Shown: in pieces, positions 17,540 through 38,993 of the stretch
Position numbering within the stretch: the first letter of the stretch is position 1
Layout: each line of letters begins with the position of its first letter
Virus record (IMG/VR): IMGVR_UViG_3300014497_000289
Span: 1-38,993 of that record
Strand: one strand, 5' to 3'
Source of the DNA: a virus
DNA: 38,993 nt
Made by a program: the position numbers and the translations under genes
Notes under the pieces: generated by a model
Seen by the model: the letters and a program-made list of their open reading frames with translations, nothing else
The model's database searches: none
What the model was told of the DNA's origin: nothing

Positions 17540-19594
17540 TTAGATCTGCTTGACCTGTTGAACTTGCTCGATGGGCGGCTGCGTCATCGACGTTGCGTAT
17601 GCGTGTGCGTTCTCGAGCGTGGTCTGATCGGCCTCGGCTTCGGTTTTGCGGATCTGCGCGACCGTGAGCCCGACCTTGGCCATGGCTTCCTGCGGGTTCT
17701 CCGGGTTGCCTTGCTTCGCCATCAGCGCTTGTTCCTTGATGCTCAGATCGCGGTCCTTCAGTTGGTATTCCGCGCTCTTGTCGTTCAGCTTCATCTCCAT
17801 CTGGGCGAGCTGCTTGGTCTTCTCCTTCAGTTCTTCCTGAAGCTGCTGCATCTGCTGCTGCACCTCGGGCGGAACCTGCGCGCCCTTCTCCATCTCGTCA
17901 AGGATCACGTCCTTGTTCCGGATCGACGACGCCTGGATGATGGCCTTCGGGGGGATCGCGAGGCCAGACTGCGCCAGCTTCGCCAACAGATCGAACTGCT
18001 CCGACTGCAGCGACGACAGGTCGGGCCCCTCCTCGATCACGATGTCGACATCAACGCCGGTCACGTCGTTTTGCACCTCGACGATCTCCTTGAGCCGCGG
18101 GTCGCCTGGCTGGATTTGCATCTGCTGCATCAGGCCGGCGCGCTCCTGCGGCTGCATCTGCATCAGCTTTTCCTCCAGCGTGACCTTCTTGTTCAGGCCC
18201 ACGAACTTGATGTTGCGGTCGTCGTCCGTGACGCGAATCCACTTCTCGTCGGTCCAGAACTGGCGGATGCGCATCCACATGGCCTCGAAGACTTCCTTCG
18301 TCCACTCGCGCAGGCCATCGGCTAAGGGCTCCATCTCGACCGAACCCGCCTGAATCTTGGTCTGCAGCGCAACGCCGGACTGGGCCTTGTCGTCCTTGCC
18401 CTGCATCGCAGCATTGGCACCTGTGGCGTTCATCTCTGCCAGCGCTTGCTGCATCAGCATGATCTGGCCGTTCGCCATGTCGCCGGTGGGGATAACGCCG
18501 AAGTCCTTACCGAACTCCGCGCCGTCGCTCATCTCAACGTGGCCGTCAGGCTTGGCAAGCTGCACCTTGGCTGCGGCGGTGTCCAGCAGCGCGCTCTTGC
18601 GGCCGAAGGTCTGCCGCTGGCTCAACAGGTGCAGCGACTTGCTGCGTCGCTTGTTGATCTCGTCCTGCAGCGGAATCAACCCTTCGACGTGGCCGTATCG
18701 GTTGTTCTCGCGGTCCACGTAGGCAGCACGGATGTGCAGCGACGAGCACGAGCGACCGAACTTATCCTTGTAGGGCGACACCTGGGGTTCTTCGAGGAAT
18801 CCGCCCTTGGTGTACGTGGCGATGTACCAATCGTCGCCCTCGCGGTAGTGCATCTGCACCACACGGACCCGCTTGCGCTTGCTGTCGCACCAGATGCCGT
18901 ACCGCGGGCGGTCGTCGTACGTTTCCGATGCCGAAGTGGACAGGGTGTCGTTGATCGAGTCGACGAACTCGGGGTACTTGGCCCGAGCATCATCGCCATC
19001 CATCCAGAGCACGATGCCCTTGTATTTCACGTCGCTGAAGTTCAGTTGGCGCGAGTGGATGTCGTAGACCAGCCGGTCCCATGGGATGCGATCGACCTTC
19101 ACCATCAAGTCGCCGTCAGGCATTTCCTCGACGATCACGTCAGCCCCGCCAGAGCCCTCAACCAGAATGTCGTTGTAGACCTCCGAGCGCAGGCCGTTGA
19201 AGCTGTTCTGGTCTGCCACGTATCGAAGGCTGTCCGTCGCGGCGTTGCTGGTCTGCTCGTCGTCGGGGTTGCGGGGGAACGCCTTCGGGTCTGTCCGCGA
19301 GCGCCGCTCGATGCCACACAGGGTGTCTACCTTGCGCTGGATGTAGTTGACGTAGATCGGAGCTTGGCCGCGCTTCTTCAGCGCCGCAACCTCTTCGCTC
19401 GTAAGCTGCAGGTTGTTGTAGTAGTCCCGGCAGCGCTCAGAGCGCTCGCGTGCGGTACGGCCTGCGTCTTCCGCTTCCTCGAAGTAGCCGACGAGCTTGC
19501 GGAGATGCTCTTCGCGGTCGATCTCGGGCGTAGCTACGCCCGCAGCATCGGGCGTCTCGACCGGCTGCGTTGCAATAGCTAGGCTGTTTTCCAA
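17540..19594 (-). CDS. Portal protein (P22-type)
   Basis: A 684-residue portal protein, close to the 725 of P22 gp1. It forms the ring through which DNA enters and leaves and which the terminase docks on. The N-terminal half has the family's YYNNLQLTSEEVAALKKRGQAP and RIPWDRLVYDIHS segments; the C-terminal part (about 550-684) is a long helical barrel/coiled coil (VPPEVQQQMQQLQEELKEKT...) ending QVKQI. The start is a TTG at 19594, with GAGGAAG upstream; a TTG start is unusual but the ribosome site and the peptide decide it. The gene overlaps the terminase 3' end by 16 bp. Confidence 0.92.
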   Translation of the reverse strand: MENSLAIATQPVETPDAAGVATPEIDREEHLRKLVGYFEEAEDAGRTARERSERCRDYYNNLQLTSEEVAALKKRGQAPIYVNYIQRKVDTLCGIERRSRTDPKAFPRNPDDEQTSNAATDSLRYVADQNSFNGLRSEVYNDILVEGSGGADVIVEEMPDGDLMVKVDRIPWDRLVYDIHSRQLNFSDVKYKGIVLWMDGDDARAKYPEFVDSINDTLSTSASETYDDRPRYGIWCDSKRKRVRVVQMHYREGDDWYIATYTKGGFLEEPQVSPYKDKFGRSCSSLHIRAAYVDRENNRYGHVEGLIPLQDEINKRRSKSLHLLSQRQTFGRKSALLDTAAAKVQLAKPDGHVEMSDGAEFGKDFGVIPTGDMANGQIMLMQQALAEMNATGANAAMQGKDDKAQSGVALQTKIQAGSVEMEPLADGLREWTKEVFEAMWMRIRQFWTDEKWIRVTDDDRNIKFVGLNKKVTLEEKLMQMQPQERAGLMQQMQIQPGDPRLKEIVEVQNDVTGVDVDIVIEEGPDLSSLQSEQFDLLAKLAQSGLAIPPKAIIQASSIRNKDVILDEMEKGAQVPPEVQQQMQQLQEELKEKTKQLAQMEMKLNDKSAEYQLKDRDLSIKEQALMAKQGNPENPQEAMAKVGLTVAQIRKTEAEADQTTLENAHAYATSMTQPPIEQVQQVKQI

Positions 19595-21177
19595 GTTTCT
19601 TCCTCGTCGTCTTTGTTGAATGCAGCGTCCCACCTGTCGATGTGGCGCTGCTTTTCTTGCGGCGGCAGAACTGCCGGATGTGCGTCAGCGATCGCGCGTC
19701 CAATGATGGAAGCCGCGTCTACCTCGTCGTCGTTCTTGCCTGCCGGAAACTTCAGGTACTGGTCGATCACGTCGTCGCCCTCAGGCCCTTCCGGAATCCA
19801 GACCCGGCCCATCGACGCCATGCCCTGAAATGACTGCGCCTTCGCAGCCTTGTCGCTACCGTGGGGCGAGATTGGCTCGATACGGCAGAAGTTCTCCTGC
19901 TCACGCATCATTCGAGTGATGAACCCAGCCGCCGACTTCCAGTTGTTGTCGTCCTCTGGGAACCATGCGATGGGCCGATGCTTTGAGAGCAACCCGAACT
20001 TCTTGTCGGCTTTGTTGCCCACAATCTTGTCGGCCATCTTGTCCATGGTCGCCTGCTCGCGGAATCCGTCCAGCATGTACAGATCGCCGAGCGGATCAAC
20101 CCCCCACACCCGAACGCACGAGAAGTCGCTATCGACCTGTCCGGCCGGCGCGTGGTCACTTGTCATGTACTTGTTCAGGTGCTTCGGCTCGCTGCCCCGC
20201 CGATACCTGCGGAACCACTCGCGCTTGAAGAACGTGCCGTCCTGCGGGCTCGGTTTCTGCTGATACAGGCTCGACCAAGTGCGCGGATTGCTCTTGAACG
20301 GCGCCCAATGCTCGAGACTGAACCACTCCGGCCACAGCGTCTCGCCGATCTTCCGTCCCAGCGGATCATCTGCCCGGTCTGCAATTGCTGGCAGGCAGAT
20401 CACCTTCCAGCGCCGGCCATCGCGGCCATCGAACATCCCCGACTCACCATCCCAGCCCACCGGGAGAATCCGCCCGGCTGGGTCGTCCTCATGCCAGCGC
20501 GTCAGGATCATCACCTGCGGCGCTCCCGGGATCAGCCGAGAGCAAAAGTCATCGATGTAGGCGTCCCACGTCTTGTTGCGGATCGTCTCCGACTCAGCAG
20601 CCTCGCGGCCCTTGATCGGGTCGTCGATGATGCCCAGCGCCCCGCGGTTGCCCGTCAGGCCCGACAACAATCCACCAGCCATGAACTCGCTGCCATTGGT
20701 CAGCGCCCACTGGTGCGCCGCCTTCTGGTCAGCCATCAGGCCGATCTCCATCACGTTGGAGAACGACCGCGAATTGATCAACTGCCTCGCCCGCCTGCCC
20801 TGCTTCTCTGCGATCTCGCTCGCGTAGCTGGCAAGAATCACGTTGCGCCGTGGCTTACGAGCCATGAACCACGGGATGAACACCACGTCGCTGTACGTGC
20901 TCTTGGCCGAGCCTGGCGGCATCAGAACCATCAGGTTCGGAATCGAGCCGTCTTCGATGCCCTGCAAGTCCGCCAGCAGCAGCTTGTGATGCGCTGCCAG
21001 CTTGTTCAGCTTCATGACGCTGAACGAATCCTCGTCCGACTCCTCGCTCAGCGGCACGGTGGGGATGTCCACCATGCAAGAGAAGTCCGCCAGGCTGCGC
21101 CTCGCAAGCTCCCGGCGAGCCGCGAAGATGTCAGTCGGGCTGAACTGCAATGCTGGCGAGCGCTCGGAGCTGGTCAT
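19579..21177 (-). CDS. terL: Terminase large subunit
   Basis: A 532-residue packaging motor and nuclease. The ATPase domain has a Walker A motif MPPGSAKST (86-94) and a Walker B ending DD at 185-186 (LGIIDD), with the coupling segment ILTRWHEDD at 224-232. The C-terminal nuclease domain (about 330-510) carries the acidic residues TSDHA and DDEVDAAS expected for an RNase H-like cleavage site. It cuts concatemers and drives DNA into the procapsid through the portal. It overlaps the small subunit gene by 47 bp. Headful packaging would be usual for a P22-like phage but is not shown by the sequence. Confidence 0.95.
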   Translation of the reverse strand: MTSSERSPALQFSPTDIFAARRELARRSLADFSCMVDIPTVPLSEESDEDSFSVMKLNKLAAHHKLLLADLQGIEDGSIPNLMVLMPPGSAKSTYSDVVFIPWFMARKPRRNVILASYASEIAEKQGRRARQLINSRSFSNVMEIGLMADQKAAHQWALTNGSEFMAGGLLSGLTGNRGALGIIDDPIKGREAAESETIRNKTWDAYIDDFCSRLIPGAPQVMILTRWHEDDPAGRILPVGWDGESGMFDGRDGRRWKVICLPAIADRADDPLGRKIGETLWPEWFSLEHWAPFKSNPRTWSSLYQQKPSPQDGTFFKREWFRRYRRGSEPKHLNKYMTSDHAPAGQVDSDFSCVRVWGVDPLGDLYMLDGFREQATMDKMADKIVGNKADKKFGLLSKHRPIAWFPEDDNNWKSAAGFITRMMREQENFCRIEPISPHGSDKAAKAQSFQGMASMGRVWIPEGPEGDDVIDQYLKFPAGKNDDEVDAASIIGRAIADAHPAVLPPQEKQRHIDRWDAAFNKDDEEETWKTA

Positions 21178-30778: not shown

Positions 30779-30990
30779 GCACGGCGAAGTACATGCCGTG
30801 GCCGCGTAAGACCTACGCGAGCGGCTACCTCAACAACAGCACCGGCAAGTGGAGCGCGACCGCATGGAGCGCCGTCCCCGTGGAAGGCATCTTCACCGAC
30901 CACCGCACCGAGGCGCATGTGAAGGGCTTTGAGTCGCGGGCTGACGCCGAACACGCCGCCATCGCCAAGGCCACCGGGAGCGCATCGTGA
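30775..30990 (+). CDS. Small hypothetical early protein
   Basis: A 71-residue protein (MSTAKYMPWPRKTYASGYLNNSTGKW...SRADAEHAAIAKATGSAS), coupled to the genes on both sides by 4-bp overlaps. It has a Trp/Tyr/Pro-rich N-terminus, a central strand-like region (WSAVPVEGIFTDHRTEAHVKGFESRADAEHAA) and an Ala-rich C-terminal helix, a layout suggestive of a small beta-alpha fold. Family not recognised. Confidence 0.6.
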   Translation: MSTAKYMPWPRKTYASGYLNNSTGKWSATAWSAVPVEGIFTDHRTEAHVKGFESRADAEHAAIAKATGSAS

Positions 30991-31169
30991 GCACCGCCAA
31001 GAAGCTCACCGACCGCGAGCGCGAAGCCATCGCCACGACTCGCGCACTGGCCGCGGCCATCGCCCCTTCCCTGCTCGACGCTGAAAACGGGGACGTTGCA
31101 AGACGCCTCGCGCTCATCGCTGTTGAGCTCAACACCGCCGCGCTCAAGGCAGCCGGCACCCCCGCATGA
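30987..31169 (+). CDS. Small helical early protein
   Basis: A 60-residue Ala-rich, all-helical protein starting at GTG (overlap GTGA with the upstream stop). It has a short basic start (STAKKLTDREREAIATTRALAAAIAPS) and an Ala/Leu-rich second half. It could be a helical hairpin. Not recognised. The next gene may begin at its stop (ATGA, 31166) or, more probably, at 31208. Confidence 0.55.
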   Translation: MSTAKKLTDREREAIATTRALAAAIAPSLLDAENGDVARRLALIAVELNTAALKAAGTPA

Positions 31170-33216: not shown

Positions 33217-33392
33217 CCACCTACCGCCAACGGGAAGGCCACTGGAGCCACCAGCCTGACCCGATCGAACACGATGCCGACGACTTTTGCAACCCGGTCG
33301 GTCTCGGCCGCGCGCTGCTCGGCTATCTCGCAATCGTCCTCTTGGTTGCAGTTTGCGCTGCCATGGGGATCTACCTGGGAGGTCTGAAGTGA
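33213..33392 (+). CDS. Small single-TM peptide upstream of recombination genes
   Basis: A 59-residue frame with ATG at 33213 overlapping the upstream stop and a TGA overlapping the next GTG. The N-terminus (1-33) is polar, His/Asp-rich; residues 34-55 are a membrane segment (LLGYLAIVLLVAVCAAMGIYLGG). The coupled overlaps make it likely genuine. Function unknown. Confidence 0.65.
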   Translation: MTTYRQREGHWSHQPDPIEHDADDFCNPVGLGRALLGYLAIVLLVAVCAAMGIYLGGLK

Positions 33393-33946
33393 CCGACGAC
33401 ACCAAGACGCATTACCGCAAGGCGTTCGATTCGCCGTACCTGAGCAGCGCCGACATCACCGAACCCACGGTGCTCACCGTGCAGCGCGTCACGCTCGAGA
33501 TCGACCGCACCAAGAAGACCAAGGACCACTTCAACACGGCGTGGTTCGCTGAGCGCGAGCTGCGGCCCGGCGAGAAGCTGAAGCCAATGATCCTGAATGC
33601 GACCAACAGCAAGACCATGGCGGCGCTGGCTGGCTCGAAGTTCATCGACGACTGGCAGAACCTGCGAATCACTGTCTATGTGGACGGCTCGGTTCGGTTC
33701 GGCAAGGAGACGGTTGAAGGCCTGCGGATCAGCCCACACGCCCCGGAGAAGCGTTCCCTGACGCCCGGCATGGTCAAGGCCTGGGCGAACGCCAAGAACG
33801 CGTTCAAGCGCGACGGAAACCTGCGCCAGGTGCTGGCCCATGTTGACATGAGCCCTGAGCACCAGACCCAGCTGATGAACGAGTGCCAGGCCGACGTACC
33901 GCCCCGCACGGAGCCCACCTTCCCTCCGGCGGAGACCGCGCAGTGA
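33389..33946 (+). CDS. Recombination-module protein next to the exonuclease
   Basis: A 185-residue protein, GTG start overlapping the upstream stop (GTGA), directly before and coupled to the lambda-exo-like gene. Core features: SPYLSSADITEPTVLTVQRVTLE, KPMILNATNSKTMAALAGSKFIDDWQNLRITVYVDG, then a Lys/Arg-rich tail. In phage recombination modules a gene in this slot is usually the single-strand annealing or ssDNA-binding partner of the exonuclease; the sequence is consistent with a small OB-like or beta-rich DNA-binding domain, but I could not match it to RecT, Erf or Redbeta. Role is inference. Confidence 0.65.
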   Translation: MTDDTKTHYRKAFDSPYLSSADITEPTVLTVQRVTLEIDRTKKTKDHFNTAWFAERELRPGEKLKPMILNATNSKTMAALAGSKFIDDWQNLRITVYVDGSVRFGKETVEGLRISPHAPEKRSLTPGMVKAWANAKNAFKRDGNLRQVLAHVDMSPEHQTQLMNECQADVPPRTEPTFPPAETAQ

Positions 33947-34563
33947 TCTTCCACGACGTCGAGCAGAACTCAGAGGTCTGGGCGGCGCTGCGCTGCGGCA
34001 AGGCTACGGGCTCGAACTTCGGCTGCTTCATGGCGAACGACGGGAAGGCGTTTGGCGAGCCCGCGAAGCGCTACGCCCTGCAGATCGCGCTTGAGATCGC
34101 GACTGGGCGGAAGGCTGAGTTCAGCTTCTCGAACGAGCACACCGAGCGCGGCCACGAGCAGGAGCCGGTCGCCCGGATGCTTTACGAGCAGGAGAACTTC
34201 GTCGCGGTCAGCAACGGCGGCTTCTTCGACTGGGGAAGCTACGGCGACTCGCCGGACGGCCTGATAGGCACCGATGGCGCCGTCGAGTTCAAGTCCGTGA
34301 TCGCGCCGACGCACTACGCCACGCTGACCAGAGGCACCTTCGACCCCGCCTACCGCTGGCAACTCGTCGGGCACCTCGACTGTGCCGCCCGGGACTGGGT
34401 GGATTTCGTCAGCTACTGCTCGGACTTCCCCGAAGGCCTGCAACTGATCACACACCGCCTCCACCGCGAGGAATGCGAAGAGGAAATCAAGCGCCTGAAC
34501 GAGCGCCGCACTGAGTTCCTCGAGCTTGTCCAAACCACGTTGAAGCGCCTCAAGGCCGCCTGA
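33943..34563 (+). CDS. Lambda-exonuclease / YqaJ family nuclease
   Basis: A 206-residue restriction-endonuclease-fold nuclease. Catalytic set: E74 (GHEQEP), D105 (SPDGLIG), and E115-x-K117 (AVEFKS), with 10 residues between D and E as in lambda exo. It should digest the 5' strand of double-strand ends, leaving 3' single strands for annealing. The start is GTG overlapping the upstream stop (GTGA), so it is coupled to its probable partner. The long N-terminal reading frame upstream is not used. Likely part of a Red-type recombination system. Confidence 0.88.
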   Translation: MIFHDVEQNSEVWAALRCGKATGSNFGCFMANDGKAFGEPAKRYALQIALEIATGRKAEFSFSNEHTERGHEQEPVARMLYEQENFVAVSNGGFFDWGSYGDSPDGLIGTDGAVEFKSVIAPTHYATLTRGTFDPAYRWQLVGHLDCAARDWVDFVSYCSDFPEGLQLITHRLHREECEEEIKRLNERRTEFLELVQTTLKRLKAA

Positions 34564-34572
34564 AAGAACCCC

Positions 34573-36378
34573 ATGCCCAACACCAATGAACGAGATGCGC
34601 TGACGGCCCTGCACGGCCAAGTCATGAACATCCAAGCCGACCACGAAAAGTCGACGCTCGAATACCGCGACCGACGCGAGGCATACATCCACGGCCATCG
34701 AGACGCGCGCCACACGGCAGCCGAATTGGTCGCTGCCACCGCCCCCAATGCCGGGGCCATGCCTGCCGCAGACATTACGCCGGAGATCGAACAGCTTCGC
34801 GCGGAACAGGCGGCAAGTGTCATGCCTCTTATCGGTCCATTGCTGGACGCGTGGGAAGGATTGGATAACGACACCAAGGCCATTCTTCGAGAGGAGGCGA
34901 ACGGAATCCACAAGTACATCGGAGCCATTTGCCACGCAATGCTCGACGCACCTCACGGGGCGCAGGCGACCAGTGGCGAGATCGCCGAGGTCGCGGTTTG
35001 CTGTGGTCGGCGTGAATGCGGCGGCGAATGCGGCAACACGTGGGAAGGAACACAGGCTTCACCCAAGCACTTGGATGATCCCCGGTTGCAACAGTTATTT
35101 GGCGATGCCATTGAGGGCGCGCTCGCACTGGGCTACCAGAACAGCAGCCCGCCACCAGACGGTCATTGGCTGGCGCGCTTCTGGGACATTGGCCGAGCCG
35201 AGGCCGCCCCCAATGCCGGGGCTCCGCTGGCCGATACCTGCCAATCCTGCAATGGCGCAGGCGGGACTATGACGGGAGGCCTTTGCGCAGAGTGCTACGG
35301 CCAGGGCAGCTACTCAGGCGCCCGTGACTTTGTAGCGGACGCCACGCCGCTCACCGACAAGCACCTCAAGGACAGCGAGGACTGGGTTGTGCGCGAAACC
35401 AAGGGAGCCGGTATGCATGTGGCGTCCGTGCGGGCAATAGAGCGGCATTACCGAGCCGCCGCACCCGCGCAACAGGCCGGGGCTCCGCTGCCGGTGACGG
35501 ACGCGATGGTCGCTGCCTACCTCAAGGCCAACGACGAATACTGGCGCCGCACCGACGAACTGCCGGGCCGCGCCGACAGGTGGCGCAAGGGAACGCCCAC
35601 CGAGGCGACGCGCGAAAGCCTGACCGCAGCGCTCGCTGTGGCCGGGGCTCCGCTGCCACTGGCGCCCAGCGGCACGAACGCGACTCCGTTCGCGTGGGAG
35701 TGCAAGCTGCTTGACGAGAACGGCGACGTGCAGAAAGTCGAACTGTGCACCGGCAGCCCGATGGTGGGCGATCACGGTATCGAAGGCTGGCACTGGGTCC
35801 ACGAACCCCTCTATAAGCCCGGGACGGTGCAAGTCATCCGCAAGGTGCAGGACGCGCGCGACATGAACCACCACGGCGACTACTACCTCATGTCTGATGG
35901 TTGCGTCACCGCTGGCGCCACCCCACCCCAGGCCACTCTCCCCGCCAGTGAGGCGGTGGACAAGCGGCTCCAGCACGCCAAGACCAATGCTGACGTGGCC
36001 GCGCAATTCCTCATGGATGCGCATGCCAAGCGCCCCGAGACGTGGCTGGGGTACTACGACGATGCGCTGGTGCACATAGACACCGTGCGCAAAGACCTCG
36101 ACGCCATGTTGCTGACTGCCACCCGCACCCAGCCCCAGGCAGATGCGGCAGAGCCGGTGGCCGACCCCTTCCGTGAGCACCTTGCACGGCAGGCCGAGGG
36201 CATCAACGTGGAACAACTCGCCGCAGCCCTGACTTGGATGGGGTCCGCGCCGGCCGGCGAAGGGCAGGAGGGCTTTGTCGCGCGGCTTGCCGAGAACGTG
36301 AACCGCCTCACGCGGGCCGTGGCATCGCATAAGCGCGCCACCGAAGCACAGGCACCGGGTGCGCGGGGAGGTTCGTGA
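34573..36378 (+). CDS. Mosaic multi-module protein with AGAPL linkers
   Basis: A 601-residue protein built from short segments joined by nearly identical linkers: APNAGA (57-62), APNAGAPL (212-219), QAGAPLP (301-307) and AVAGAPLPLA (355-364). Modules between differ: about 63-211 includes a CCGRRECGGECG cluster (143-153); about 220-299 has a DnaJ-like zinc pair (CQSCNGAG and CAECYGQG, 223-245); about 308-354 is helical (AMVAAYLKANDEYW); the rest resembles tail-end domains of assorted phage hypothetical proteins. I recognise individual segments as recurring in such proteins but no overall function. Linker-coding DNA repeats are exact (see findings). Confidence 0.7.
   Translation: MPNTNERDALTALHGQVMNIQADHEKSTLEYRDRREAYIHGHRDARHTAAELVAATAPNAGAMPAADITPEIEQLRAEQAASVMPLIGPLLDAWEGLDNDTKAILREEANGIHKYIGAICHAMLDAPHGAQATSGEIAEVAVCCGRRECGGECGNTWEGTQASPKHLDDPRLQQLFGDAIEGALALGYQNSSPPPDGHWLARFWDIGRAEAAPNAGAPLADTCQSCNGAGGTMTGGLCAECYGQGSYSGARDFVADATPLTDKHLKDSEDWVVRETKGAGMHVASVRAIERHYRAAAPAQQAGAPLPVTDAMVAAYLKANDEYWRRTDELPGRADRWRKGTPTEATRESLTAALAVAGAPLPLAPSGTNATPFAWECKLLDENGDVQKVELCTGSPMVGDHGIEGWHWVHEPLYKPGTVQVIRKVQDARDMNHHGDYYLMSDGCVTAGATPPQATLPASEAVDKRLQHAKTNADVAAQFLMDAHAKRPETWLGYYDDALVHIDTVRKDLDAMLLTATRTQPQADAAEPVADPFREHLARQAEGINVEQLAAALTWMGSAPAGEGQEGFVARLAENVNRLTRAVASHKRATEAQAPGARGGS
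34739..34757 (+). repeat. Direct repeat at linker 1 (copy 1 of 2)
   Basis: ccgcccccaatgccggggc (19 bp), identical to the sequence at 35204-35222, 465 bp apart, in frame with the module gene. Encodes APNAG. Confidence 0.85.
35204..35229 (+). repeat. Direct repeat at linker 2
   Basis: Second copy of the 19-bp repeat (35204-35222), followed on by CTCCGCTG so that its right part also equals the 15-bp GCCGGGGCTCCGCTG copies at 35476 and 35641. Confidence 0.85.
35476..35490 (+). repeat. Direct repeat at linker 3
   Basis: GCCGGGGCTCCGCTG, identical to bases 35215-35229, 261 bp (87 codons) away in the same frame. Confidence 0.85.
35641..35655 (+). repeat. Direct repeat at linker 4
   Basis: GCCGGGGCTCCGCTG, third copy of the 15-bp repeat, 165 bp (55 codons) after the copy at 35476. 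All copies are in frame. Confidence 0.85.
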
Positions 36379-36635
36379 TGGGCTACCGCTATTTCCTCTC
36401 CGCGAAGCTCGGCGACGAAACGGTCGAGCGCGAAGTGACACTCGAAGCCTACTGCGCAGCCGAGCGCGCCGCCGGTTTCCGCCCCAAGCTCTGGAGCGGC
36501 GATCCGAAATACATGACCACCCCCGCGACTGGCGGATTCGGCGGAGGCGGTGTCAGCGGAAGCATGAGATGGACCGACGAGCCGCCCGCCGCCACTAAGG
36601 CACCCAGCGCAGCGAAGAAAGAAGGCCAGCCATGA
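36378..36635 (+). CDS. Hypothetical early protein
   Basis: An 85-residue protein with ATG at 36378 and GGGGAGG upstream; a GTG one codon earlier is less likely. The first half has strands and helices (MGYRYFLSAKLGDETVEREVTLEAYCAAERAAGFRPK) followed by a Gly-rich stretch (ATGGFGGGGVSG) and an Ala/Lys-rich tail. Ends with a 4-bp overlap to the next gene. Not recognised. Confidence 0.65.
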   Translation: MGYRYFLSAKLGDETVEREVTLEAYCAAERAAGFRPKLWSGDPKYMTTPATGGFGGGGVSGSMRWTDEPPAATKAPSAAKKEGQP

Positions 36636-36919
36636 CCGAACTCGTCATCTATTGGATTGGTGCGCTGGCCGTGCTGGTGGTTTTGCTCGTCGCGACTGCA
36701 CTGCTGGGTCGCATGGCATATGAGTGCGCTGAGAACGCCTGCAAGGACATTCTCCGCTTCCGCCGTCTGGCGTGGCTGCGCTACTGGACCGGGCGCCTGG
36801 AGCGTGAGGGTCTGCTGCCGCTCGATGAGCACTACCGCGCCATCAGCAAGGCCCAGCGCCCAACGGACGTGGACCAGGCCTACGAATGGGAACACGAAGC
36901 AACGAAAGGCCAGCCATGA
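36632..36919 (+). CDS. Single-TM membrane protein
   Basis: A 95-residue protein with an N-terminal membrane segment (about 4-26, LVIYWIGALAVLVVLLVATALLG) and a charged cytoplasmic C-terminal domain (about 35-95) with several Arg and Trp (FRRLAWLRYWTGRLEREG). Coupled by 4-bp overlaps on both sides. It may anchor a soluble partner or act in phage exclusion; no family recognised. Confidence 0.7.
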   Translation: MTELVIYWIGALAVLVVLLVATALLGRMAYECAENACKDILRFRRLAWLRYWTGRLEREGLLPLDEHYRAISKAQRPTDVDQAYEWEHEATKGQP

Positions 36920-37551
36920 CCGCAGCACACGACACCCAGGCGCTGACAGAAGCAGAAGAGCTGTTGCAATGGTTCGATGAGTGCGAGGGATTTGAGAGCG
37001 GGACGGCTGCACCGCACAAATGGGTTCTGCAAGCGCACTCCGAACTTCGCCGGCTGAATGACATCGCCTCCCGCCTCCAGGAGCAGGAGGGGCAGCCCGC
37101 GCCAATCGCTTGGGAAGCGACGACCTCGGCGTACATCAAGTTCATCACCCAGGAGCGCTACAGCCGCTTCGCGCCCGCCGTCCAGCGCTGGTACAAGCCC
37201 TACCGCTGCTCTTCCTGCGCCACCCTTGTCGCAGGCTCTCAAGCGGTGCAGGTGCCCGGGTGGAGGCCAACGGACGACGAGATTCGCCAAGCGTGGGACG
37301 ATCTCCAGAAACGCGAGGAAGCTGCGTTGCAGGCCCTGAGGGCCGCGCGGATCGGCAGCACTTGCGCAGCGTGCGGAGTGGGCAAGCTGGCCGCCGATGG
37401 CAACGGCTACAACTACTTCGAGCGCTGCGACTCTTGCCGCCACGTGCCTTTCTACGATGAAAACGGCGTGGACATGATCGCCAAACTCGCGAAAGCTCGA
37501 GCTGCCGCCCCTCTACAGCCTCTGGCTGGCGGGGAGGTGGGCAATGGATAA
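36916..37551 (+). CDS. Mosaic hypothetical protein with zinc pairs
   Basis: A 211-residue protein. A helical N-terminal part (about 1-60) leads to a short QPAPIAWEATTSAYIKFI segment; CSSC at about 98-101 and CAACGVG...CDSCR further on suggest two zinc knuckles; the C-terminus is Ala/Leu-rich. Segments such as PIAWEATTSAYIKFITQERYSRFAPAVQRWYKPY recur in phage mosaic proteins as I recall them. Overlaps its neighbours (4 bp before, 8 bp after). Like the 601-residue protein it appears to be a patchwork. Function unknown. Confidence 0.65.
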   Translation: MTAAHDTQALTEAEELLQWFDECEGFESGTAAPHKWVLQAHSELRRLNDIASRLQEQEGQPAPIAWEATTSAYIKFITQERYSRFAPAVQRWYKPYRCSSCATLVAGSQAVQVPGWRPTDDEIRQAWDDLQKREEAALQALRAARIGSTCAACGVGKLAADGNGYNYFERCDSCRHVPFYDENGVDMIAKLAKARAAAPLQPLAGGEVGNG

Positions 37552-37888
37552 GCAGCCCGTGACGCCGCGCTGCGTTGTGCTCATGACGCTCGCGCTTCAG
37601 AGTCAGGCCAGAACCTATGACGACCTGGTAGCGCTCACCGGCCTGAGGAAGGCGACTGTGGCGCGCTGGATCACAGCGCTGCGCACCGCGGACCGCATGG
37701 TGCGAATCGAGGCCTACGCGCCAGACAAGAGCGGCAGGCCTTTCGTTCCGATGTTCCGTCTCGGCGGCGAAGTGGATCTACCGCGGCCTGGGCCGGCGAT
37801 CGCACCGGCCCAGCGAATGCGCGCTCTTCGTGCAAAGCGGAAAGCCCTCGCACCTCACCCATCCAAAAGCAAGGGGGAGACCGAATGA
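37544..37888 (+). CDS. Winged-helix DNA-binding protein
   Basis: A 114-residue protein with a winged helix-turn-helix (about 24-60: RTYDDLVALTGLRKATVARWITALRTADRMVRIEAY) and a basic, Pro-rich C-terminus (about 85-114). The start lies 8 bp inside the previous gene, and the gene's stop overlaps the excisionase-like start (ATGA). Probably a regulator; may act on the integration genes next to it. Confidence 0.7.
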   Translation: MDKQPVTPRCVVLMTLALQSQARTYDDLVALTGLRKATVARWITALRTADRMVRIEAYAPDKSGRPFVPMFRLGGEVDLPRPGPAIAPAQRMRALRAKRKALAPHPSKSKGETE

Positions 37889-38190
37889 GCGACCTGACTC
37901 GTCAAGAACTGTGCGTCCAGCTGCGCATCAGTGAGTCCACCGTGCGACGCTTGGAGCGCGATGGCCTACCCTGCACCCCCGTGGGCCGCAGCAAGCGGTA
38001 CGACCTCACCGAATGCAAGCAGTGGCTGCGCACCAACCAACCGAGTCAAAAATGTCAATCTGGATCGACAAGCAAGGGCGCCGTCACGTCGGAGTCATGG
38101 TCAAGGGCCGTCGCGTACATCGAATCCTCGAAGCAGGTTCGTCGGCGAGTGATGCCAAGCAGCTTGAATCTCGTCTCATCGCCGAGCTGA
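37885..38190 (+). CDS. Excisionase-like HTH protein
   Basis: A 101-residue protein whose first about 52 residues form a MerR/excisionase-type helix-turn-helix (LTRQELCVQLRISESTVRRLERDGLPCTPVGRSKRYDLTECKQWLR). Excisionases bend DNA and direct integrase toward excision. The C-terminal about 45 residues are encoded over the integrase start in another frame and look less conserved, so the functional protein may be mostly its HTH. The overlap of 139 bp with the integrase recalls lambda xis-int. Confidence 0.75.
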   Translation: MSDLTRQELCVQLRISESTVRRLERDGLPCTPVGRSKRYDLTECKQWLRTNQPSQKCQSGSTSKGAVTSESWSRAVAYIESSKQVRRRVMPSSLNLVSSPS

Positions 38191-38993
38191 CGGCAATCAA
38201 GCCGCTGGCGGGCGATCCTCTGCTGGTGGAGCTGATGCCGCTGTACATGGAGCACGCCAACACGACGCGCTGGCCCGACCAGGCCAAGCACTGCGCTTTG
38301 AGGATCGAGCCCTGGCTGAAAGACCATCGCGCCTCACAAGCCCGCGAAGTGGCCGCGAAGATCATTCGCGACATGAAGCCAGCCTATAAGCCGGCGACGA
38401 TCAACCGAAGCCTGGCAGCGCTCAAGAAGGCCTTGTCGATCGCTTGGGACCTGGGCATGACGCAGGTGAACCACGGGATGGAGATCAAGAGCTTGCCGCC
38501 GAACAACAAGCGCGAGGTGTTCCTGACGGTCGACGAAGTGCACCATCTCGCCTCCCATTGCCCCGAGGGTGTCCAGGCGGCGATCTGGATCGCCCTGTAC
38601 ACCGGCGCCCGCCGCGGGGAGGTCTTGGCCATCAAACCGGAGGACGTGGGAACCCACTCCCTGACCATCCACGCCCAGAACACGAAGACGCTGCGGACGC
38701 GCGTTGTCCCGATCGTCGACCCGCTATGGCGATGGTTGTCGGAGGTGCCGCTACCGTACAAGGACTATGAGGGTCTGAAAACGGGGTTCCAGCGCGGCCG
38801 AGCAAAGGCCGGGATGCGGCATGTGAATTTCCACGACCTGCGCCATTCCTGCGCATCGATCCTGATCGCGAGCGGCGCAGACCTCTACACCGTCAGCAAG
38901 ATCCTCGGGCACGCCGCAGTGACCACTACGCAGCGCTATGCTCACATGCAGGTTGAGCAGCAGCGCGACGCCCTGTCGAAAGCCTTTGGTTGA
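38052..38993 (+). CDS. int: Tyrosine-type integrase
   Basis: A 313-residue site-specific recombinase ending at the last base of the window. N-terminal arm-binding part (about 1-50), core-binding SAM-like part (about 55-150), catalytic domain (about 155-313) with R187 (TGARRGE), K212 candidate, H261-x-x-R264 (HDLRHSC), H287 (ILGHAA) and nucleophile Y296 (QRYAHM). It should mediate recombination between the phage attP and the tRNA 3' end. The start ATG at 38052 is preferred over 38013 because the extra residues do not match the family. It overlaps the excisionase-like gene. Confidence 0.95.
   Translation: MSIWIDKQGRRHVGVMVKGRRVHRILEAGSSASDAKQLESRLIAELTAIKPLAGDPLLVELMPLYMEHANTTRWPDQAKHCALRIEPWLKDHRASQAREVAAKIIRDMKPAYKPATINRSLAALKKALSIAWDLGMTQVNHGMEIKSLPPNNKREVFLTVDEVHHLASHCPEGVQAAIWIALYTGARRGEVLAIKPEDVGTHSLTIHAQNTKTLRTRVVPIVDPLWRWLSEVPLPYKDYEGLKTGFQRGRAKAGMRHVNFHDLRHSCASILIASGADLYTVSKILGHAAVTTTQRYAHMQVEQQRDALSKAFG

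Follow-up and report, generated by a model that had tools for sequence, protein, structure and literature searches.

The window, here the whole 38,993-nt stretch of IMG/VR record IMGVR_UViG_3300014497_000289, belongs to a temperate phage (62% GC) in which an exonuclease gene is followed by a mosaic accessory region and then by xis and int, while the minus strand carries the structural genes (terminase, portal, major head protein), and a helicase is encoded at 25.9-27.0 kb. The nearest phage relative of the large terminase (19579-21177) is found in Pseudanabaena phage Pan3 (45% identity), which is unusual alongside accessory genes that are closest to those of Pseudomonas phages. At the centre of the accessory region is the patchwork ORF P0001, adjoined on its upstream side by a gene for a YqaJ/lambda-exonuclease-family nuclease and followed downstream by genes for an excisionase-like HTH protein and a tyrosine-type integrase (Table 1), so that P0001 occupies the position of the exo-xis accessory genes of lambda. 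The original prediction placed a Red-type exonuclease directly upstream of P0001, and the nuclease is indeed there (PF09588), although no annealase or other annealing partner for it could be identified in the window. Beside the exonuclease gene is P0002, a protein kept in about 80 loci, whose structural model (pLDDT 77) consists of five beta strands and C-terminal helices. Comparison of this model with the PDB gave no significant fold match; weak OB-type matches, for example to PRD1 SSB, serve as a hint only that P0002 possibly has an OB-like fold and is possibly a single-stranded DNA-binding partner of the exonuclease.

The P0001 reading frame has a high third-position GC content (0.65-0.85) over its whole length, consistent with a single coding frame. 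Against Pfam the protein gave nothing except a sub-threshold PilI match, with no Ead_Ea22 domain, and AlphaFold prediction without an alignment yielded no usable model (mean pLDDT 42.9). The ORF and the exact repeats previously described under its linkers are present at the positions recorded, that is, a 19-bp repeat at 34739 and 35204 (465 bp apart) and a 15-bp repeat at 35215, 35476 and 35641 (261 and 165 bp apart), all of these distances being multiples of three. The last pair of 15-bp copies actually extends to 18 bp (35475/35640), which had been missed, as had a 17-bp repeat (AAGGCCAGCCATGACCG; 36622-36638 and 36906-36922) that lies just downstream of P0001 and falls on two successive gene starts. 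Among exact direct repeats of the 39-kb window the 19-bp repeat ranks first in length, the 18-bp repeat second and the 17-bp repeat third, the last being the same punctuation at the level of genes.

First-order Markov simulation of the whole window (n = 100) produced no repeats of at least 18 bp, the mean maximum being 15.2. Codon constraint alone had been put forward as a possible source of the repeats, and this explanation fails, since among 2000 synonymous codon shuffles within the ORF, with the protein held fixed, none contained repeats of at least 19 and at least 18 bp together and, likewise, none contained four pairs of repeats of at least 15 bp. The identity of the repeats thus resides in the DNA and is no by-product of the peptide. 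Glycine is encoded by GGG in all four of the linkers (GGG forms 16.5% of the Gly codons of this phage) and asparagine by AAT in both APNAGA linkers (18% of its Asn codons).

Two related records were recovered from IMG/VR. A degenerate DNA pattern of the APNAGAPL linker matched a single contig, designated R (IMGVR_UViG_2916137223_000001, 52.7 kb; loci L167/L175-L177), and a gene-end DNA pattern detected R again together with Q (IMGVR_UViG_2916137223_000003, 42.1 kb); judging by the record names, the two are prophages of a single isolate. Searches for further viral relatives with single linkers gave R and Q only, initial searches with the full P0001 protein or with module M3 alone found no relatives, and, of the 80 loci obtained with the exonuclease as query, only two share modules of P0001. 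Plasmids gave no match at the DNA level, and GenBank phages none to linker DNA at the cut-offs applied. A match of the linker-3 pattern in L174, within a Pro/Gly-rich protein, was rejected as chance, as was one in a GGDEF/EAL gene, the sole match when some 1170 bacterial genomes, drawn from one family, its order and one class, were searched with the linkers; negatives from these genomes are weak because DNA queries score few candidates per genome.

Table 1. Features of the accessory region and its surroundings in the window, with the corresponding segments of phages R and Q.
Feature	Coordinates	Strand	Match or counterpart
Upstream gene-boundary island	30953..30997	+	97.8% to R 42440-42484
P0002, beside exonuclease gene	33389..33946	+	phrog_21613
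YqaJ/lambda-exonuclease-family recombination nuclease	33943..34563 (longest ORF 33883-34563)	+	Pfam PF09588, E 1.4e-10; phrog_149 exonuclease, E 7e-34
Island 1: upstream gene end, intergenic DNA and P0001 start (MPNTNERDAL)	34556..34603	+	47/48 identical to R 48393-48440
Patchwork ORF P0001, 601 aa	34573..36378	+	
Module M1	34604..34729	+	unrelated 93-nt segment in its place in R
Linker 1 (AATAPNAGA), holds repeat copy 34739-34757	34730..34757	+	28/28 identical to R 48534-48561
Cassette M2+M2b+M3	34758..35203	+	in window, absent from R
Linker 2 (AAPNAGAPLAD), holds second 19-bp copy	35204..35235	+	32/32 identical to R 48543-48574
Module M4, CxxC-x-G-x-G zinc-finger-like start	35236..35454	+	219-nt segment in R, borderline vs shuffled
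Linker 3 (AAAPAQQAGAPLP)	35455..35492	+	38/38 identical to R 48794-48831
Module M5, cassette	35493..35639	+	absent from R
Linker 4 (AGAPLPLAPS)	35640..35671	+	32/32 identical to R 48814-48845; about 97% to Q 38856-38886
Module M6	35672..35914	+	unrelated in R and Q
Linker 5 (ATPPQATLPASEAV)	35915..35960	+	95.7% to R 49160-49205; 43/43 identical to Q 39233-39275
Module M7	35961..36118	+	replaced in R (47 nt) and Q
Linker 6 (TRTQPQADAAEPV)	36119..36160	+	95.2% to R 49253-49294; 28/29 identical to Q 39392-39420
Module M8	36161..36335	+	
Gene-end linker (AQAPGARGGS)	36336..36375	+	90% to Q 39548-39587
Gene-boundary island (APSAAKKEGQP, stop, next ATG)	36592..36636	+	97.8% to R 50328-50372; left part 36585-36617 also Q 40075-40107
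Gene-start island (MTAAHDTQAL), part of 17-bp repeat 36622/36906 inside	36911..36945	+	35/35 identical to R 50608-50642
205-bp module within next ORF	37064..37268	+	98% to R
Gene-end island (LPLAGGEVGK)	37502..37544	+	97.7% to R 51133-51175
Gene-end island	37843..37877	+	94.3% to R 51385-51419
Excisionase-like HTH protein	37885..38190	+	phrog_66, E 3.5e-7; HTH_17 match under its cut-off
Tyrosine-type integrase, open at window end	38013..38993	+	PF00589, E 2e-22; phrog_1

The window and R share 13 colinear islands of 94-100% identity, all of which fall between window positions 30953 and 37877 and measure 28-48 bp with one exception of 205 bp. Outside the islands blastn found zero matches between the two phages, strict tblastx (E 1e-8) likewise nothing, and of the 324 same-strand 17-mers common to them 323 are located within 30-38 kb. 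The segments between islands score at the level of shuffled sequence with two exceptions, a weakly similar 118-nt segment (36946-37063) and the borderline segment of 219 nt (35236-35454). Islands are situated at gene starts, at gene ends or within an ORF, in the same frame in both phages; about six occupy gene starts or ends and the remaining linkers are inside P0001, whose counterpart in R is split into two ORFs. The pattern reaches beyond P0001 to at least five gene boundaries in the 30.9-37.9 kb region. Ahead of the LPLAGGEVGK gene-end linker the window encodes a zinc-ribbon-like segment, in place of which R carries a DUF551 domain.

Five islands are shared with Q, which keeps the order of the window linkers and has different modules in between. 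A 254-aa ORF of Q contains, in order, AGAPLPLAPSEA, a second copy of LPLAPSE, ATPPQATLPASEAV, TRTQPQAD and QAPGARGGS, and the next gene end (QAPSAAKE) is also common to Q and the window. RecT and a YqaJ nuclease are encoded by R; no exonuclease or annealase was found among the Q proteins covered by a non-exhaustive scan. Common to these three otherwise unrelated phages are the linkers and their order, whereas the intervening modules are unrelated.

Two joints in R bear on how such an arrangement could arise. The first 28 bp of the R linker TCGCTGCCACCGCCCCCAATGCCGGGGCTCCGCTGGCCGAT are those of window linker 1 and its last 32 bp are those of window linker 2, the overlap between the two matches being the 19-bp repeat. 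The second R linker (QAGAPLPLA) begins with the 38 bp of window linker 3 and ends with the 32 bp of window linker 4, and here the overlap is the 18-bp repeat. Both R linkers correspond exactly to the products predicted for recombination across these repeats, and the joints read as in-frame gain or loss of cassettes of 465 bp and 165 bp. R would arise if the window cassettes were lost; equally, the window would arise if the cassettes entered R-like linkers. It had been proposed from the layout of the repeats that recombination at linkers adds, drops or swaps modules, with comparison of related prophages as the means of checking, and the R joints support this: relative to the window, R has gained or lost modules precisely at the repeats, its remaining modules are replaced between the same linkers, and Q combines these linkers with other modules.

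Individual alignment of the modules, also suggested at the outset, indicates that M1, M2 and M3 have separate histories and contexts. A homologue of M1 (residues 1-55) is a free-standing 71-aa protein of Pseudomonas phage vB_PpS_SYP, and M1 also lies inside a short ORF of L003. M2 occurs in a different, unrelated patchwork ORF of L008, and M3 was confirmed in 230 IMG/VR stretches with very different neighbours and is present in more than 80 of the loci fetched. M3 (window 35163-35196, residues 175-208) is a module of about 40 residues, DAIxGALAFGAQNxxPPPxxHWxxRFWDIGRxE, encountered alone or joined to many partners in hundreds of Pseudomonas and Burkholderiales phage contigs; it was assigned to no Pfam family, and phrog_16138 was its sole match.

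The same type of junction was sought more widely by scanning 168 loci for exact direct repeats of 12 bp or more, 60-1500 bp apart and with unlike flanks (384 repeat pairs ahead of the flank filter), and by searching elsewhere for the left flank of copy 1 joined through the repeat to the right flank of copy 2. The scan yielded 44 junction matches, both window repeats among them, and none with the flanks reversed; because many of the loci are related and their matches non-independent, the 11 events to which the 44 matches correspond are the better count. A clear independent in-frame case is found in Pseudomonas phage proteins, where L132/L135/L146, compared with L128, show a 135-bp module at a 14-bp AQPSP linker, and a patchwork ORF of 811 aa in L126 (2135-4567) has an AAPAQS linker at which 21 bp are repeated in frame. 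This ORF also contains an internally duplicated module, TGNAEADxIxxRLxSSDPDFxDC.... Pairs of Pseudomonas loci have several islands of 25-90 bp in common in this region, the window and R being the extreme pair with 12 short islands and no long match. Elsewhere, a gene-start boundary of about 40 bp (encoding YGGRGIPM before the start) precedes unrelated genes in the Pseudomonas phage loci L087-L166 (locus ~2215-2275), and in L162 (669/980) a 20-bp repeat with a small hairpin (AGCCGCTATAGCGGCAAGGA) brackets a 311-bp segment, with 22 matching loci; the segment is missing from the single-copy site of the other loci and resembles a terminator-like boundary cassette.

The standing alternative for phage mosaicism is a selection-only model (PMC3233612; PMC3029335), under which the islands would be remnants of a recently shared region whose modules were replaced illegitimately, selection having spared only joints at the linkers. 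Gene edges and flexible linkers are indeed places tolerant of joints, but leftover ancestry of this kind is unlikely given that both R joints lie inside the repeated core, that the ragged module remnants expected past the linkers are essentially absent, and that 44 junctions stand against 0 reverse across loci; furthermore, the linkers recur at several sites of one genome, which argues that they travel with modules. Convergence, in which the needs of a flexible linker together with codon preference would make Ala/Pro/Gly-rich linkers alike, accords with the composition of the linker peptides and with the GC content of the phage. It is largely refuted by the synonymous shuffles, and almost certainly does not account for the pattern, since identity at the DNA level takes in stop codon and intergenic bases and ends abruptly. 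The window/R islands differ by seven amino-acid-changing and three silent substitutions in 181 codons, numbers too few for a firm test, and with 7/10 differences changing an amino acid the peptide itself is seemingly not tightly held.

A site-specific system acting on the linkers (an invertase or shufflon, a cassette integrase, or transposon-like insertion with target duplication) could be envisaged from the direct repeats that flank both extra cassettes, as target duplication would yield, and from the integrase gene 2 kb downstream. It is nevertheless very unlikely, as the linkers are unlike one another, so that one recognition site could not serve for every island, ordinary starts and ends of genes are found among the islands, and the sole recombinase seen beside the region is the phage integrase in its usual place by xis. 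Inversion of the shufflon type was rejected because the 15-bp core is without inverted copies (3 forward and 0 reverse in the window, 2 forward and 0 reverse in R). The variation takes the form of whole-module replacement, not of point variation as in diversity-generating retroelements. Assembly or binning artefact might be suspected in IMG/VR contigs of different origin; with the pattern seen in three records (two from one isolate genome), with open frames and with coherent phage genomes around it, such an artefact is scarcely credible.

The reading preferred here, with good though not complete confidence, is that P0001 and its neighbours make up an accessory region, running from exo to int and of linker-module-linker-module build, whose modules would be exchanged by homology-driven recombination at the linkers. 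The evidence base for this consists of three phages of this linker pool, with recombination read from sequence footprints. The linkers would represent boundary sequences, 28-48 bp of DNA common to a pool of temperate phages, and when phages meet in one cell through co-infection or co-lysogeny, as R and Q may have in their isolate, homology-driven recombination at the linkers would swap modules between them. The likeliest route would be single-strand annealing by phage exonuclease/annealase systems, with a host pathway as backup. Within one genome, recombination at repeated linker cores would drop modules and unequal exchange would add them, and the products would be new patchwork accessory proteins that remain in frame since the linkers share codon phase. 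These enzymes and this occasion are ones that we infer, as is any benefit of the new protein variants.

Rad52-like phage recombinases build mosaics at short homologies, and the minimal pairing length is reported as 23-27 bp with Red-beta and 31-34 bp with RecA (PMC3945230), lengths that linkers of 28-52 bp bracket. The internal repeats of 18-19 bp are below these minima, so deletion within a genome is probably rarer than exchange between genomes and may be rare or use another route. The suggestion of a possible modular diversity system is therefore retained as regards module gain, loss and swap at linkers, whereas nothing indicates a dedicated system or enzyme; ordinary short-homology recombination is enough to explain the pattern. 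It is also conceivable, although somewhat doubtful, that the phages meeting in one host lineage retain a common ordered set of linkers, a shared "punctuation code" that would be upheld by continual exchange or second-order selection.

Near-identical short DNA borders unrelated modules at 13 islands in R and at five in Q, and the phenomenon is known "boundary sequence" mosaicism carried within one reading frame. In lambdoid phages the boundary (linker) sequences (Susskind and Botstein, 1978; Clark et al., 2001, for HK620; as cited in PMC3029335 and PMC3233612) are, in the terms of those citing papers, likewise short conserved DNA bordering unlike modules and proposed sites of homologous recombination, and five or more of the present islands are ordinary gene boundaries of that kind. 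Compared with the lambdoid sequences as so cited, six linkers here are in frame within one ORF, some of them repeated in the gene, the phages that share them have unrelated structural genes, and two exact gain or loss joints are visible. Membership is broader here than in the original, between-genes definition.

In lambda and Stx phages, Ea22 and other products of the exo-xis region have a mosaic make-up in which DUF551 serves as a portable domain (PMC10834534). P0001 is comparable to Ea22 in its location between exo and xis/int and in being a mosaic protein, as Ea22 is in its interchangeable C-terminal parts, with DUF551 in the matching slot of R; it differs in having no Ead_Ea22 Pfam match, in being three times longer and in that the linker DNA is conserved rather than an N-terminal domain (PMC10834534). 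On the basis of genome position and the DUF551 module in R, P0001-type proteins appear to resemble exo-xis accessory proteins such as Ea22, which tune phage-host interplay.

Segment gain or loss between short repeats by general recombination is also known from the ~50-bp repeated gene ends of mycobacteriophages Brujita and Island3, one intergenic case in close relatives as against a series of in-frame linkers here (PMC3029335). Domain mosaicism links the present case to the shuffling of phage protein fragments (Smug et al., 2023; PMC10684548), whose authors expect it to be frequent among accessory proteins that have no known function, but that study maps shared domains, whereas here the joint is conserved and the domains differ. 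In Campylobacter group II phages repeats between modules similarly permit rearrangement, the modules being 28-55 kb and the repeat regions 1-2.9 kb and mostly extragenic (PMC4546147). A literature search short on subscription journals found no paper describing in-frame repeated linkers of this form.

Boundary sequences are absent from most phage mosaic joints (PMC3029335, PMC3233612), and for this reason the debate between guided homologous recombination and illegitimate recombination plus selection has been open for decades. In the phages described here the boundaries are plain, intragenic as well as intergenic, and common to phages whose structural genes are unrelated, and the event is preserved exactly in two of the joints. 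The isolate carrying R and Q offers a natural setting for changing linker homology and measuring the resulting exchange. The arrangement suggests a route by which phages may assemble new accessory proteins out of pre-existing modules and, if a punctuation code does exist, it would allow otherwise unrelated phages to go on trading modules of their early accessory proteins without loss of frame.
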